Source: Treponemataceae bacterium
GTDB lineage: Bacteria; Spirochaetota; Spirochaetia; Treponematales; Treponemataceae
Direction of reading: 5' to 3'
Length of the DNA: 39,738 bases
NCBI GenBank assembly: GCA_024402495.1
Contig: JAKSTR010000020.1
Location: 1-39,738, forward strand
Shown here in pieces: positions 4,486-38,503 of this stretch. A model generated the notes under the pieces. The model did not search any database. It was not told the DNA's origin and saw only the letters and a list, made by a program, of their open reading frames with translations. The translations under genes were made by a program, and so were the position numbers. Each line of letters opens with the position of its first letter. The first letter of the stretch is position 1.

Positions 4486-5745
4486 CTATTTTACAGTATT
4501 ATATTTAACATATCTTTTCACTTTTTGAAGATCATAATTGCTTGTAGAATCAAAAAGAATTATGTCACGTCCCCATATCCAGCTTTCAAAGCCGTCATCA
4601 AACTTTACTTTTACCCATTTTGAAATTTCGTTGTTAAATTCTTCCAGATTTTCTTTTGCATCAATTATAGTTACATAATACCGTTTATTACCCGGCAACT
4701 CTTTTATCACTTCTGAATCAAAATCCGAATCATTGTAACAACAAATACTAGCATTTCTTTGTTCATACGGCTTTGTAACGATTACCCTTCCTGTATCAAT
4801 GGTAAAAAAATCTTCCATTGGAACATACGGTCTTGTAATTGCTGGGGTGTCTAATAAAAGCAGTTTTACGTCTTCATCATATTTCATAACTTTTATGACA
4901 AAACTATCATTCCCGCATTTTCCAAAATCATATCCCTTTTCAGCAAACATCGCATCTGAATAAAATGAACTCTTTTCCTGATCATAATATATAAAATGAT
5001 TACCTCGTTCCTGGATTGTCTGATTATTGTCTGTAACAGATACGGTACCAATATATAAATCCGTATTCTCAAATGGCTCGATTATTGAATAGAACTCGTT
5101 ATCATTTGATTTGATATATTTAGTACACAAATCGTTTGCTGAAAAATTTTTTCCATCTTCTCTCAGATATTCATTTTCATTATCAAAATGAAACGAACCA
5201 AGATTATAGCCATTTTTACTTATGAAATAAGAGTCTTTTTGTTTCAGCAAATATGTATAATAAGAGTCAGAAAAATTTGTCACAAAATAATTATTCTTGA
5301 ACTCATAATATAAATAATACGTTCCCTCTGAAAGAGCATATTCCTCACCTTCTCCAGGGGTCTTATATTGATTTTTCTCCAGATCAAATATTTTAAAATA
5401 TCTCTCAGATGGTAATATTTTAAATGAAAAGGTTAATGCATCTGCCAGAGGCAAATCAAAATTATCCTCTCCACAATTAATCCATCTGATTTTTTCAATA
5501 TCTTTTATTTGCTCAAAAGAATAAGCTGATTCCATAAAATCAAAGTTTATTTCCGTATCAAAATCATTTATTTCTGCTAATTCATCATTTATTTTTTCTT
5601 GAAGAGAATTATTTACCTCAATATTCTTTTCAAGAGATTCATCTGCTTCTTTTAAAATATTATTAGTATTCCTATTACAAGCAAATAATAAAAACCCTAA
5701 TAAAAAAATAAGAAAAAGATATTTCTGTTTAGTAAGCATAGTCAT
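4486..5745 (-). CDS. lipoprotein with C-terminal SH3-like domain
   Basis: This 419-residue lipoprotein has the signal peptide MTMLTKQKYLFLIFLLGFLL and lipobox LLFAC (Cys23). An acidic, coiled region (about 30-65) is followed by a large unknown middle part. Residues about 326-405 look like a bacterial SH3 domain: VTKPYEQRNASI, a variable loop, then WVKVKFDDGFESWIWGRDII, the common W-V-K-V..G..GWI pattern. Such domains often bind peptidoglycan or other cell-wall ligands. GGAGTAA lies just before the first ATG; the second ATG (5737-5739) has better spacing and may be the true start. Part of this gene is duplicated at 4220-4311. Confidence 0.7.
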   Translation of the reverse strand: MTMLTKQKYLFLIFLLGFLLFACNRNTNNILKEADESLEKNIEVNNSLQEKINDELAEINDFDTEINFDFMESAYSFEQIKDIEKIRWINCGEDNFDLPLADALTFSFKILPSERYFKIFDLEKNQYKTPGEGEEYALSEGTYYLYYEFKNNYFVTNFSDSYYTYLLKQKDSYFISKNGYNLGSFHFDNENEYLREDGKNFSANDLCTKYIKSNDNEFYSIIEPFENTDLYIGTVSVTDNNQTIQERGNHFIYYDQEKSSFYSDAMFAEKGYDFGKCGNDSFVIKVMKYDEDVKLLLLDTPAITRPYVPMEDFFTIDTGRVIVTKPYEQRNASICCYNDSDFDSEVIKELPGNKRYYVTIIDAKENLEEFNNEISKWVKVKFDDGFESWIWGRDIILFDSTSNYDLQKVKRYVKYNTVK

Positions 5746-6020: not shown

Positions 6021-6108
6021 TGTCATTCCGAACTTGCTTCGGAATCTGTTTTGGGTAACAAATCGGATGCTGTGCGCAGCCGCCGCAGGCTAACGAGTTC
6101 AGCATGAC
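6021..6108. repeat. dispersed palindromic repeat, copy
   Basis: It starts TGTCATTCCGAACTTGCTTC and ends AACGAGTTCAGCATGAC. The left half forms a hairpin (ATTCCGAA/TTCGGAAT). Similar copies occur at 14110-14198, 37993-38503 and 39580-39738, with decayed pieces near 22808, 22894 and 33127. Confidence 0.8.
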
Positions 6109-6256
6109 CTGCTTTTGCCGTTTGCTTTATCTCTAACTATTGATTGGTTGGGGCAAAAGCTCCCAGTTTTTGTCTGTGCAAAAACTGCGACTATTTTTGC
6201 AAAAGTTGTATTTGATAAAAAAGCAACTTTCAGGCAGTCCATGCTCGGAAAAAAAC

Positions 6257-6607
6257 GTGATTTAAATAGTTTTTGTGAATGCTTTAAATCGCGGTGATTT
6301 AAAAGAATATTTTTTTGCTTTAAATCGTCGTGATTTAAACGGAAAAAAGAACTTTTTGGTTTAAATCACCATGATTTAAATGAAAAAAAGAACTTTTCGG
6401 TTTAAATCACCGTGATTTAAATGAAAAAAAGAACTTTTCGGTTTAAATCACCGTGATTTAAATGGGAAAAAGAACTTTTCGGTTTAAATCACCATGATTT
6501 AAATGAAAAAGACTCTTTGTCGCTTTAAATCGCCATGATTTAAACCCAAAAAAGAACTTCTTTAAATCGCCGTGATTTAAACACAGAAAAAAGACCGTTT
6601 AAATCAC
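6257..6607. repeat. array of eight 21-bp palindromes with constant spacers
   Basis: Eight full copies of TTTAAATC-N5-GATTTAAA start at 6283, 6319, 6360, 6401, 6442, 6483, 6524 and 6561. N5 is usually ACCGT, ACCAT, GCCGT or GCCAT. Steps are 36, 41, 41, 41, 41, 41 and 37 bp. A lone right half (6257-6266) opens the array and a lone left half (6598-6607) closes it. The 15-20-bp spacers are nearly the same in the central copies (GAAAAAAAGAACTTTTCGG), so this is a tandem palindrome array and not a CRISPR. A step of 41 bp is close to four helical turns, so bound proteins would sit on one face of the DNA. No gene overlaps it. Confidence 0.95.
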
Positions 6608-6661
6608 GTTTTCACATCACCTTAAAAGCAATATTTTTAACAGGTTCAATTTCCGGGTTCT

Positions 6662-6958
6662 TTAATCTCCGCATAAAATTGATATTTTTGTTATGCTATT
6701 GTCTTTCAAATCAAAAGATATTTCCATCATCTCTTCTTCAATCATATTTGCAGCATCTATTGAAATACTGTTTTCTGACTTGTGTAATACAAAACGATTT
6801 TTTTCATCCTGTTTTACTATATTGTATTTTTTGTTAAGTGAATCATATTCATAAATATCACAATCTTTTTCATATGCGCTGATTATTTCTTCTAGCGAAT
6901 ACTGTCTGTGATTTTCCTGACTGAATGTATTCCTCAACAATTTTCTGACGTTCTTCAC
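6662..6958 (-). pseudogene. hypothetical protein, probably truncated
   Basis: A 98-codon frame opens only with a GTG (6956-6958) that lacks a ribosome binding site. From about codon 25 onward (SLEEIISAYEKDCDIYEYDS...) composition is protein-like and acidic, with alternating strands, but no family is recognised. The first 30 codons overlap, in another frame, a transposase-like helix-turn-helix (6870-6977) that looks more authentic. The likely reading is a junction: the 3' part of one gene attached to the 5' part of another, leaving both broken. Confidence 0.4.
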
Positions 6959-7002: not shown

Positions 7003-7665
7003 TTAGATTAAATATTTATTTTGGGAAAATACATGAGAATTGACGGTTACATTAAAAATGGCTTCCATTCCTGTAATGAAATCATCTTTTCCTCCGTATG
7101 AAGGATGTCTAATAATCCGAGGAATTTCATATTCTTTTAGAATCTTCGCAGCATTTTGTCCAATTGGAATAATGTGATTTTTCTTAATTTCAAATATTCC
7201 TATTAGCTCTTCAAGTATAATTTTACCTTGCTTGAGTTCTTCTCCTGTAGGAGCACGATTAGAATTTTGGTTATCTTTATTATGTGGATGAAATGGAAAA
7301 GAATTCCATATTAACGGAAGAGTTTCTAGCTTATCTAAACAATTCCATACTATTGTTGCAGAGCTTTCAGACTCAGGTTTATTCGGATTACGTATTTTAA
7401 ACCCATTTTCTAATCCAAAGAAATTATTTTCTTTCAGATTACGCTCAGAGGTGAATGGTACACCACTCCATCTGCAGCCTTTATATCCAGGAGCTTCTCC
7501 AACAATTAGATACTCAGGTTTTAGCAAGAACATTTTTTCTAGATATAATTTTAGATTATTTAATTGATTAGAATCTGCAGAATACATATTTTCTACCGTA
7601 GCAGAATCTACATAATAATTTGCAAGTTTCTCTATGAAATCTTCTATCTTCTTTATTGCCATCAT
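7003..7665 (-). CDS. uracil-DNA glycosylase superfamily protein
   Basis: This 220-residue protein has the glycosylase core: VGEAPGYKGCRWSGVPFTSE at about 55-74, the water-activating/uracil-pocket loop of UDG family 4/5-like proteins, and the late HPSYGG loop, corresponding to the HPS DNA-intercalation motif. Members excise uracil from DNA or, in divergent groups, do something uncharacterised. The GEAPG motif resembles families 4-6 more than Ung, and no 4Fe-4S cysteine set is visible. GGAGAA precedes two consecutive ATGs; the second (7660-7662) has the better spacing. Its start overlaps the stop of an upstream decayed frame, as in a former operon. Confidence 0.75.
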   Translation of the reverse strand: MMAIKKIEDFIEKLANYYVDSATVENMYSADSNQLNNLKLYLEKMFLLKPEYLIVGEAPGYKGCRWSGVPFTSERNLKENNFFGLENGFKIRNPNKPESESSATIVWNCLDKLETLPLIWNSFPFHPHNKDNQNSNRAPTGEELKQGKIILEELIGIFEIKKNHIIPIGQNAAKILKEYEIPRIIRHPSYGGKDDFITGMEAIFNVTVNSHVFSQNKYLI

Positions 7666-14017: not shown

Positions 14018-14387
14018 ATTGTCTAAAAGACTTTATATTCTCAGGTTGCATTTTACAACCGGCAATAATCCAATAGCCCGAATTTCAAATTTTGAAAAAA
14101 TTGTCTATCTGTCATTCCGAAAGAAAAATGTCATTCCGAACTCGTTTCGGAATCTGATTCTGATAACAAATCAGATGCTGAACTAGATTCCGCATGACTC
14201 GCTTTTGCTGTTTGCTTTGTCTCTAACTTTTGCCGGCGCAAAAACTGCGACTGTTTTTACAAAAGCTGTATTGATACAGGCGATTCTTATTTATCAATTT
14301 CTATAAACTCGATATTCGGACTATTATTTAAACGTAATACTAGCTAGTATTTAAACACGCACCAGTAAATAAAAAAGGATGTACAAA
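14018..14387. other. intergenic repeat region
   Basis: No gene is seen. It carries a dispersed palindromic repeat (14110-14198) and the companion segment (14199-14277) also found at 6109-6235, then AT-rich DNA up to the ribosome binding site AAAGGATG of the next gene. Confidence 0.6.
14110..14198. repeat. dispersed palindromic repeat, copy
   Basis: It contains TGTCATTCCGAA twice, the TTTCGGAATCTG half and the GATGCTGAAC..GCATGAC half. The same unit as at 6021, here with a partial duplication of its start. Confidence 0.75.
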
Positions 14388-15125
14388 ATGAAAAAGAATA
14401 TTCTAACAATAATTTTTGCCGTCACTTATATTTTTACACTTTCGGCAAGCGACATTCCATTTTTCAAAAGCCTTTTTATGGGCGATGAGGAATATGTAAG
14501 ACAAGAAATATTAAAATGCAAAGATGTGGAATCTGTTGAGTTAAAACTGGGATATCATGATGAAGAAGATAAAAATTATTATATTTTAATTTACTTAAAA
14601 GATAATCGTTTTGTTAGTTTTGGCGAAGTTCAGCTAGACTGCTTTTTAAGCGACAATTCTATTCATGATGTTAGGATTAAGCTTATTCAAATAAACGATT
14701 TAGTATTTGAACAACAATCTTTTAAGCCTTGTTCATTAGGAGAAACGGGGTTTGTTTATTATGACTGGACAAGTTTTGGAGAAATAAGGTTTTTAGAACA
14801 ACTTTCGCCTGATATAAATGCTGGCAATATACTTGAAATAATTGAAAACATTGATGATGTTTATAATTTTATCAAGAATCTACCGGAAAAGCCTGAATGT
14901 ATTTCAACAATGAGAACTGAGTTTGATGGGTTTTATGAAAAGTCTTTTGAACTTCCTGAAGAATTTAATAATGGAATTCCAGTTTCAATTATTAACAGAA
15001 AGACAGATGTTGCTACTGGGAAATGGTATGAAAAAGGCTATAAATTCTATAAAAAGTCTGTTGAACGTGCAATAGAAGAAGCAACTTTTAAATATGCCTA
15101 TAAAGATTACAGAACAGATTATTAA
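14388..15125 (+). CDS. secreted protein of a three-member tandem paralogue family (1)
   Basis: This 245-residue protein begins MKKNILTIIFAVTYIFTLSA, a signal peptide probably cleaved near SASD. The segment GDEEYVRQEILKCKDVESVE (about 29-48) is nearly repeated in the protein at 16144 (GNEEYVRREIMKCKDVEYVE). A distal IIENIDDVYNFIKNLPEKP is shared in form with both neighbours. No domain is recognised. The start was chosen at 14388, not three codons earlier, because AAAGGATGTACAAA then has proper spacing. It is in an operon-like run with the next genes (15 bp gap). An export-dependent role is all that can be said. Confidence 0.7.
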   Translation: MKKNILTIIFAVTYIFTLSASDIPFFKSLFMGDEEYVRQEILKCKDVESVELKLGYHDEEDKNYYILIYLKDNRFVSFGEVQLDCFLSDNSIHDVRIKLIQINDLVFEQQSFKPCSLGETGFVYYDWTSFGEIRFLEQLSPDINAGNILEIIENIDDVYNFIKNLPEKPECISTMRTEFDGFYEKSFELPEEFNNGIPVSIINRKTDVATGKWYEKGYKFYKKSVERAIEEATFKYAYKDYRTDY

Positions 15126-15140
15126 AAGGAAGGAATAAAA

Positions 15141-15824
15141 ATGAAAAAACGAGTTTTAATTGTATTATTGTTTATTTTGGTCACAAATTGCATTTACAGT
15201 GGCTCATTTATTAAAGACATGTCTGACTGGGAAAAAGAAATACTCATGCTGCCATGTGTTGAATCTGTAGAAAGTGAAAGACTGGATCCGGATGATGACG
15301 ATTTCTTGTACAAAGTGAAAATACGCATGACAGAAAACCGTTGTCTTCAGGTTTCCTATTTTGAGCCATTTGCACCACGAGGCTATCAGGATGATTTCTA
15401 TCTAGACAGAATCGGAGATTTAGTTCCTGTAATGTGGGGTTATGAGCCTTTTTCCAAAGGTTATATATTAAATTTTCATTTTTTACGGTTTAAACATATC
15501 AGTTCTTATTTTAACCAAAAAAAGAACCTGATAGATGTAATAAAAGCGTATGATGAAATATATTCGTTTATCAGCAAATTGCCGTATTATGACATAAACT
15601 CGCCAGAAGAAATCATAGAGTGGGATACGGAAAATACACAGAAACCTGAATTCAAGGCATGGGAAGAAAATAAAGATCCGTATGTTTATTCAAATTTTCA
15701 TATTAAAACAATATACGATAAATATTGGGAAGAATATAAAATCTATAAAATGACTGTTGAAGATTATAATGAATATGTTCTTTCTCGGGGTTGGAATTTT
15801 CATGTTTTGGGCATTGAACCATAA
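15141..15824 (+). CDS. secreted protein of the tandem paralogue family (2)
   Basis: A 227-residue protein with signal peptide MKKRVLIVLLFILVTNCIYS and a mature start at about GSFIKDM. It is a divergent member: WEKEILMLPCVESVESERLD corresponds to the EEYVRQEILKCKDVESVE region, and VIKAYDEIYSFISKLP to the late helix of the other two. AAAGGAAGGAA precedes the ATG. The frame after its TAA continues open into the fragment at 15825-16127. Function is unknown. Confidence 0.65.
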   Translation: MKKRVLIVLLFILVTNCIYSGSFIKDMSDWEKEILMLPCVESVESERLDPDDDDFLYKVKIRMTENRCLQVSYFEPFAPRGYQDDFYLDRIGDLVPVMWGYEPFSKGYILNFHFLRFKHISSYFNQKKNLIDVIKAYDEIYSFISKLPYYDINSPEEIIEWDTENTQKPEFKAWEENKDPYVYSNFHIKTIYDKYWEEYKIYKMTVEDYNEYVLSRGWNFHVLGIEP

Positions 15825-16127
15825 AATAGAATCAAAAACGGCTTTTTGGGGTCTGTTGCAAGCTTGTATTCTAAAGTAAATCCTATAAAGGAAGACAAGA
15901 ACAGCTTTGAAGAATTGTCACCGGAAGTAAAGGACTGGTACATTGTAAATCCTGAAAATCCAAATGATCCTAGACCTTTGATAAATCAAGAAGCCAGAAG
16001 GCAAGCCATGGAGAAAAATATAGAACTGGAGAATTCCAGAAATATTATGGAAAAAGCCAGCGAATTTTTTCAAAAATGTCTGCAAAAAACAGAAATAAAA
16101 CAAGGCACGAATTGTAGCACTAACTAA
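15825..16127 (+). pseudogene. orphan C-terminal fragment between the paralogues
   Basis: About 100 codons (NRIKNGFLGSVASLYSKVNP, then DWYIVNPENPNDPRPLINQE and a Lys/Glu-rich helix) end at TAA 16125-16127. It has no ATG and no ribosome binding site; the first possible start is a TTG at 15846. It is in frame with the TAA of the preceding gene. It reads like the tail of a larger protein and has no signal peptide, unlike its neighbours. It could be a displaced toxin-type C-terminal module next to immunity-like genes, but that is inference. Confidence 0.45.
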
Positions 16128-16143
16128 AAAAAAGGATAAAGCT

Positions 16144-16902
16144 ATGAAGAAATTAATTGTTTTTTTTATATTAATGATGAATGTACTTTTTGGACTGACA
16201 GCAATGGGTAGTTATGAAGGCATACCATTAATTAAGTCTTTAACTATTGGAAACGAAGAATATGTAAGACGGGAAATAATGAAGTGCAAAGATGTAGAAT
16301 ATGTAGAAGTCATTCCGCGTAATATGTATAGAGGCGATGACCTTTATATGATTTATGTTTATTTAACAGATAACCGTTACATTGCGTTTGCAGATGTATT
16401 CTTGGAATGTTTCTTGGATAATAAAGAAATAAAGGGAATTTCCATTCTTCTCTGGCAGATAAATGATATATTTCCTGTAGAACAAGAATATTATCTCAAA
16501 GGTCTTGATAAGAATACAGGGCATTATGTTGCTTCGTTGAATGGAGGATTAGAAATAAATAAAATGTTTCAAAATATAAATTTCAATAATAATAGCATTC
16601 CTGAAATCATCAATAATTTTGATACAGTTTATAGTTTGGTCATGGATTTAAGTGAACTTCCTTTGAAAACACCTGTTGTCCAGTATTTTGATGTAATTTA
16701 TGAAGATAAGGCGATATTTCCAGAAGAATTTGAAAATGAAGTTTCTTTTTCAATATTAGAACAGCATGAAAATAATTATTTTTTTGATAAAACAGTAAAA
16801 ATATTTGAGGAACGCTACAAATTCTATCAAATGCCAGTGGAAAGAGCTTTATCAGAATTTAAAATCACAGACTTAAAATCTGAATATGCAAAACATAAAT
16901 AA
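16144..16902 (+). CDS. secreted protein of the tandem paralogue family (3)
   Basis: A 252-residue protein with signal peptide MKKLIVFFILMMNVLFGLTA. It is closest to the first member: IPLIKSLTIGNEEYVRREIM against IPFFKSLFMGDEEYVRQEIL, then YVYLTDNRYIAFADVFLECF against IYLKDNRFVSFGEVQLDCF, and both end with YKFYxxxVERAxxE. Conservation of these segments suggests a shared fold of about 220 mature residues. AAAGGATAAAGCT precedes the ATG. Function is unknown. Confidence 0.7.
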   Translation: MKKLIVFFILMMNVLFGLTAMGSYEGIPLIKSLTIGNEEYVRREIMKCKDVEYVEVIPRNMYRGDDLYMIYVYLTDNRYIAFADVFLECFLDNKEIKGISILLWQINDIFPVEQEYYLKGLDKNTGHYVASLNGGLEINKMFQNINFNNNSIPEIINNFDTVYSLVMDLSELPLKTPVVQYFDVIYEDKAIFPEEFENEVSFSILEQHENNYFFDKTVKIFEERYKFYQMPVERALSEFKITDLKSEYAKHK

Positions 16903-37992: not shown

Positions 37993-38503
37993 CAGATGCT
38001 GAAACGAGTTCAGCATGACAGAATGTGACAACCGCAATTCACGCATGACAGAATGATATTCCGATTTTTGGTCATTCCGAACTTGTTTCGGAATCTGCTT
38101 TTAGATAACAAATCGGATGCTGGGCGCAGCTGCCGAAGGCTAACGAGTTCAGCATGACAAAATGTTTTTGCAACCGCAATTCACGCATGACAAAATGATA
38201 TTCCGAATTTTTGTCATTCCGAACTTGTTTCGGAATCTGCTTTTAGACAACAAATCGAATGCTGTGCGTAGCTGCCGAAGGCTAACGAGTTCAGCATGAC
38301 AGAATATTTGGGCAACCGCAATTCACGCATGACAAAATGATATTCCGAATTTTTGTCATTCCGAACTTGTTTCGGAATCTGCTTTTAGACAACAAATCGG
38401 ATGCTGGGCGCAGCTGCCTAAGGATAACAAGTTCCAGGTGTTATGTTAGATGCTGAAACAAGTTCAGCATGACAGAATGTGACAACCGCAATTCACGCAT
38501 GAC
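37993..38503. repeat. tandem 142-bp units of the dispersed palindromic repeat
   Basis: The start GTCATTCCGAACTTGTTTCG recurs at 38071, 38213 and 38355, giving a 142-bp period, with a partial unit before. Each unit has two hairpins: ATTCCGAA/TTCGGAAT and, in the best copies, ATGCTGAA/TTCAGCAT. The third unit diverges near 38430. Confidence 0.9.

Follow-up and report, generated by a model that had tools for sequence, protein, structure and literature searches.

What is an array of perfect palindromes, set at nearly constant steps between genes, and does it stand alone in its genome? The window, by which we mean the whole stretch of 39,738 nucleotides analysed here, is contig C113 of a Treponemataceae bacterium (assembly of 2.97 Mb in 202 contigs). 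A motif scan of the window revealed 8 perfect TTTAAATC-N5-GATTTAAA palindromes at 6283-6581, starting at 6283, 6319, 6360, 6401, 6442, 6483, 6524 and 6561 (steps of 36 bp, five times 41 bp, and 37 bp). Tandem Repeats Finder gave the array a period of 41 independently of the palindrome scan, and the two methods confirm what the initial annotation had described: eight palindromes at steps of 36-41 bp, five of them of 41, with a half-site at either end. The variation of N5, read copy by copy, is as limited as had been stated, and no open reading frame of at least 80 aa in the window list overlaps the array, in line with the earlier claim that no gene lies over it. Beyond the 8 perfect copies, every match to the palindrome in the window has at least 3 mismatches; allowing up to 3, there are 9 matches against 1.6 expected, the largest number in 100 shuffles being 6. 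The linkers, taken as independent palindromes, were mostly not significant in our own scoring. The parts are as follows, with no strand assigned to any of them.

6021-6666: larger segment common to the C148-end and C120-start loci; starts with a GTCATTCCGAA...TTCGGAAT repeat
6256-6266: left terminal half-palindrome CGTGATTTAAA, seen in the sequence
6267-6282: linker L1, 16 bp, TAGTTTTTGTGAATGC, resembling L1 of C148 and C2
6283-6303: palindrome 1, N5 = GCGGT
6304-6318: linker L2, 15 bp
6319-6339: palindrome 2, N5 = GTCGT
6340-6359: core linker, 20 bp, CGGAAAAAAGAACTTTTTGG
6360-6380: palindrome 3, N5 = ACCAT
6381-6400: core linker, 20 bp
6401-6421: palindrome 4, N5 = ACCGT
6422-6441: core linker, 20 bp
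6442-6462: palindrome 5, N5 = ACCGT
6463-6482: core linker, 20 bp
6483-6503: palindrome 6, N5 = ACCAT
6504-6523: core linker of a second type, TGAAAAAGACTCTTTGTCGC, with a close relative in C2/C17 and a similar one in C68
6524-6544: palindrome 7, N5 = GCCAT
6545-6560: linker R2, 16 bp
6561-6581: palindrome 8, N5 = GCCGT
6582-6597: linker R1, 16 bp, CACAGAAAAAAGACCG, identical in C120
6598-6608: right terminal half-palindrome TTTAAATCACG

The same palindrome recurs elsewhere in the genome, always in arrays. All 19 exact copies found genome-wide lie inside arrays (8 in C113, 3 at the end of C148, 1 at the start of C120, 4 at the start of C2 and 3 at the start of C17), so that the singly scattered copies which the initial annotation had raised as an objection do not exist. 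The linkers match between C148 and C120 and between C2 and C17, and judging from these sequences each pair is probably one locus, which gives three loci in this genome. The C148, C2, C17 and C120 contigs end within arrays, as expected from short-read assembly, and their array lengths are thus lower bounds. Linkers are position-specific and common to the loci (first 16 bp, second 15 bp, core 20 bp, last two 15-16 bp), which indicates that whole elements were copied. The segment at 6021-6666 has 87% and 94% identity with the C148-end and C120-start loci, respectively, and in the comparison with C148/C120 the array differs at 3 of 183 sites and the flanks at 39 of 281 (p = 1.5e-6). This low divergence of the array relative to its flanks could be the result of ectopic gene conversion.

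Other arrays keep the layout and change the arms. Two contigs, C68 and C128, carry TTTAAAATA-N3-TATTTTAAA arrays with an identical step and with linkers similar to those of the TTTAAATC loci, the C128 array being decayed. In the alignment of the two units, two stem pairs differ between the types in both of their bases (GC to AU and AU to UA). A covariance model of the unit matches only five loci in this genome (the TTTAAATC loci, C68 and C128), and it finds no single copies of either type outside arrays. Base-by-base reading then covered 1.15 Mb, or 39%, of the genome and parts of three relatives, with some stretches masked as N, and these sequences were scanned for repeated palindrome arms. 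The further arrays of this genome have palindromes unrelated to TTTAAATC: C126 has TTTCTACA-AA-TGTAGAAA followed by TTCCGCA-AAA-TGCGGAA, C5 and C117 have the TTCCGCA type, and C133, C137 and C143 have the TCGGGA type (TTCGGGA-AAA-TCCCGAA). Between the TTTAAATC/TTTAAAATA types and the TTCCGCA type, the linkers show only a loose resemblance. Within the same genus, the genome G003 has three arrays whose stems differ from those above, with AACCACA-AAA-TGTGGTT in its C30 and CCTTA-AAA-TAAGG in its C40 and C7; no such array appeared in the stretches read from G006 (176 kb) and G005 (64 kb). In total, at least 10 such palindrome arrays of about 41 bases lie between unrelated genes of the genome under study, and about 70 palindromes are listed in the counted arrays of this genome (39% read) and G003 together.

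What these arrays have in common is their geometry. The unit is a near-perfect palindrome (stem of 5-11 bp, loop of 1-3 bases) followed by a linker that is usually rich in runs of A and T; units follow head to tail every 40-41 bp and are nearly identical within one array. Centre-to-centre steps between palindromes are of 40-41 bp in 51 of 57 cases, those of 36-37 bp being mostly at array ends. Across the seven stem types, 75 of 75 pairwise differences in the left arm are compensated in the right one; an A-T pair always closes the loop, which in most of the types reads AAA. The count of compensated differences is descriptive, because the arrays were partly picked for their palindromes. Since a scan for palindrome arms selects palindromes, the unbiased test is the cross-check by Tandem Repeats Finder, which is blind to them. 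With periods of 25-60 (27 excluded as a short-period tail), 14 of 16 arrays have a period of 40-41 (11 rows in the genome under study and 3 in G003); the other two have periods of 33 and 49. Each of the 14 contains a perfect palindrome, with a shuffle fraction of at most 0.05 in 13. As a control, 117 mixed bacterial loci (887 kb) yielded two arrays of period 40-41, neither with an evident palindrome in its units. That the palindromes differ and the repeat of about 41 bases is constant suggests that shape and spacing matter more than letters. We think it probable that the window array belongs to a family of hairpin repeats set in tandem between genes, in the manner of REP/BIME, present in this bacterium and in at least one relative of the same genus.

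The genes around the arrays are unrelated, and co-directional, divergent and convergent settings all occur. According to our reading of the translations, on which the identities rest except where Pfam was run, the neighbours seem to include ruvA, a TetR regulator, a chemotaxis receptor, HD-domain genes, a MATE transporter and a putative thiamine pyrophosphokinase; a TPP riboswitch (L303:18248-18364) directly adjoins the 41-bp array of C133. Neither a common adjacent regulon gene nor a par operon was found in the neighbourhoods inspected. The nearest genes of the window array had been called broken remnants, and such breakage is not shown: the frame at 7003-7665 (minus strand) encodes a full-length uracil-DNA-glycosylase superfamily protein according to Pfam, and 4486-5745 (minus strand) is an open frame of 419 aa. 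Among the neighbours of this array, the frame at 6662-6958 (98 aa) is the only candidate for a fragment; Pfam gives no match for it. The window also encodes, at 14379-16902, a paralogous protein family with signal-peptide-like starts (MKK..LTIIFA..IFTLSASDIPFFKSLFM), a relative of which (L152:1255-1917) lies near the C120 array. Empty-site comparisons at ruvA and at the HD gene involve relatives with 56-69% protein identity, too distant for precise insertion points.

The distribution of the arrays is patchy. The array pattern was absent from 273 other genomes of the family, the unit model had no match in 393 other genomes of the order, and no related matches were found among phages, plasmids or IMG/VR. 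DNA searches of relatives gave, besides the genome itself, weak chance-like matches only, and one scan of public genome contigs with the motif gave only chance-like single matches. Lone hairpins with the AAA loop outside arrays were likewise limited to chance-like matches in unrelated sequence. No Rfam family matches at the arrays, and we found no account of such arrays in the literature.

Could the array be a clustered site for one sequence-specific dimeric protein reading TTTAAATC-N5-GATTTAAA, such as a multi-site operator or a partition or centromere-like site? The perfect dyads in helical register, and an array better conserved than its flanks, are what such a site would have, and the invariance of the arms, from which the initial annotation had proposed protein binding, does hold within the three TTTAAATC loci. 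It does not extend to the sister arrays, whose arms differ yet are always complementary, so that no single sequence-specific protein is expected. Unrelated arms with an identical period, no shared recognition sequence across seven stem types, no neighbour gene or orientation in common, and no arrays in the other 273 family genomes or matches in plasmids or phages make this account improbable. The suggested operator is unlikely given the unrelated neighbours and mixed orientations, and the seven stem types argue against a one-sequence partition site; of that suggestion the anchoring part may still hold. Multi-copy parS or plasmid centromere arrays resemble the window array in their tandem symmetric sites in helical register and differ in that here there are several loci, with differing site sequences and no partition gene seen adjoining. 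CRISPR arrays also have palindromic repeats at regular spacing, but here the linkers are repeats of each other instead of unique spacers, as the initial annotation had recognised in dismissing CRISPR, and the repeat varies among arrays of one genome. In G003, L268:18863-20000 and L342:55-556 hold a CRISPR-like array (36-bp repeat GTTGCAGGTTGACCAGACAAATTAATCAGTTATAAT, 66-bp period), which looks unlike the 41-bp arrays. A transcribed hairpin RNA (an RNA sponge or a 3'-end stabiliser) or tandem terminators would account for the strong folding predicted for either strand (z about -15), but such folding is expected from any palindrome array and is not extra evidence. The window array has no terminator-like site within 6256-6608 (no G+C-rich stem with a T run immediately after it), Rfam gives no match, and some arrays lie between divergent genes. 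Furthermore, G-T and A-C stem mismatches are equally frequent (5 each) and show no strand bias, so that nothing points to selection acting on one strand as RNA. We regard this explanation as very unlikely.

The closest known elements are REP and BIME (PMC2817692, PMC3733652), which are likewise short extragenic stem-loops. Their stems and loops have similar lengths, they occur in regularly spaced clusters, and their stem variants stay complementary. Yet REP/BIME elements have an unpaired GTAG (GTRG) or CGTC end tag, alternating (inverted) units, and a RAYT transposase flanked by the repeat, whereas the 41-bp units have no conserved tag, run head to tail as judged from the linkers and the AAA loop, and have no RAYT associated. 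Lacking these three defining features, the arrays are in our view REP-like and not REP. They also differ in the A/T-rich stems of the window array and in the fixed period of 40-41 bp across different stems, and their copy number may be lower (usually more than 100 per genome for REP, against 19 TTTAAATC palindromes genome-wide and the roughly 70 palindromes listed above). CGTC-tagged REPs without a dedicated transposase have been reported in Spirochaetes, grouped elements being rare (PMC3733652); their lack of such a transposase and their dimensions (stem of 8-9 bp, loop of 4-5) are similar, but the 41-bp units lack the CGTC tag and are strung together in long tandem arrays. A CGTC-like REP, GTCATTCCGAA-N5-TTCGGAAT, does adjoin the window array. 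Elsewhere in the window, at 38003-38434, three tandem intergenic GTCATTCCGAACTTG..TTCGGAATCTG repeats with a 142-bp step resemble CGTC-type REPs, and single copies lie near 6021, 14129, 33066 and 39692. Contig C130 has a ATTCCGAA-N5-TTCGGAAT REP cluster (L300:2737-3185) of 76-bp period, in which the REP and a GTGCTGAA/TTCAGCAC hairpin alternate. This array is BIME-like and does not belong to the 41-bp class; its REP is the same as the CGTC-like repeat of the window. That the 41-bp units are themselves mobile REP/BIME elements, non-autonomous and dependent on an IS200-like or RAYT transposase for their movement, would fit their palindromic, extragenic and clustered character, the CGTC-like REP units beside the window array and the presence of one Y1 transposase gene in the genome. 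We consider it improbable, given the absence of the tag and of single TTTAAATC/TTTAAAATA units outside arrays, and because the only Y1_Tnp gene found (L230:1315-1944 of contig C186, near rpmE and a glycoside-hydrolase-like gene) looks IS200-like on inspection and has no 41-bp-type repeats beside it or arrays on its contig. A functionless 41-bp satellite, spread by slippage, recombination and hairpin-templated copying, with a mutational process keeping the palindromes perfect, is a real possibility that falls short of being likely. Of the four suggestions made in the initial annotation, that of a satellite-like repeat has the best support, and the patchy distribution, the unrelated neighbours, the decayed C128 array and the higher-order periods of 81 and 123 bp all point in this direction. 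What would be unexpected under neutral drift, unless the copying process sets the length, are the fixed period of 40-41 bp across seven stems and a conservation above that of the flanks. Three 41-bp arrays (L246:10981-11348, L333:7175-7452 and L303:17943-18171) have an 81-bp higher-order period with two alternating linker types, like dimeric satellites. There are also iteron-like tandem arrays of 21-23 bp (L239:19623-19998, L295:74-279, L284:3222-3321 and L291:4915-5164), some on small contigs that are possibly plasmids.

How would such a family of hairpin arrays arise and persist? Arrays may lengthen, shorten and homogenise through slippage or unequal recombination, and an altered founder unit, once re-amplified, would give an array a new stem. 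Copying alone can produce the sameness within an array, without selection. All stem types may descend from one common ancestral array. Selection or a mutational process would maintain the palindrome and its spacing of four helical turns, and the constraint would bear on DNA structure (a cruciform or hairpin, or a dyad recognised by a shape-reading architectural protein) and not on one sequence. The most likely role would be that of local sites of DNA architecture or topology, as in REP/BIME clusters, and not the control of single genes. A narrower version, in which selection acts on geometry alone, with one dyad or hairpin per 41 bp, interchangeable stems, and a structure- or shape-specific protein or topology enzyme as reader, strikes us as rather unlikely.

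Palindromic repeats of bacteria are usually defined by their sequence. Here, unrelated palindromes have one fixed period in a genome and in a relative of the same genus. Whichever process holds that period, this is a family that sequence-based repeat searches would miss. If a copying mechanism sets the period, the arrays would reveal a process that generates repeats of one fixed length. If selection on geometry alone were true, the arrays would be a type of chromosomal site set by geometry instead of sequence. And if selection holds the geometry, they would make it possible to test directly the role that clusters of palindromic repeats have in the chromosome.
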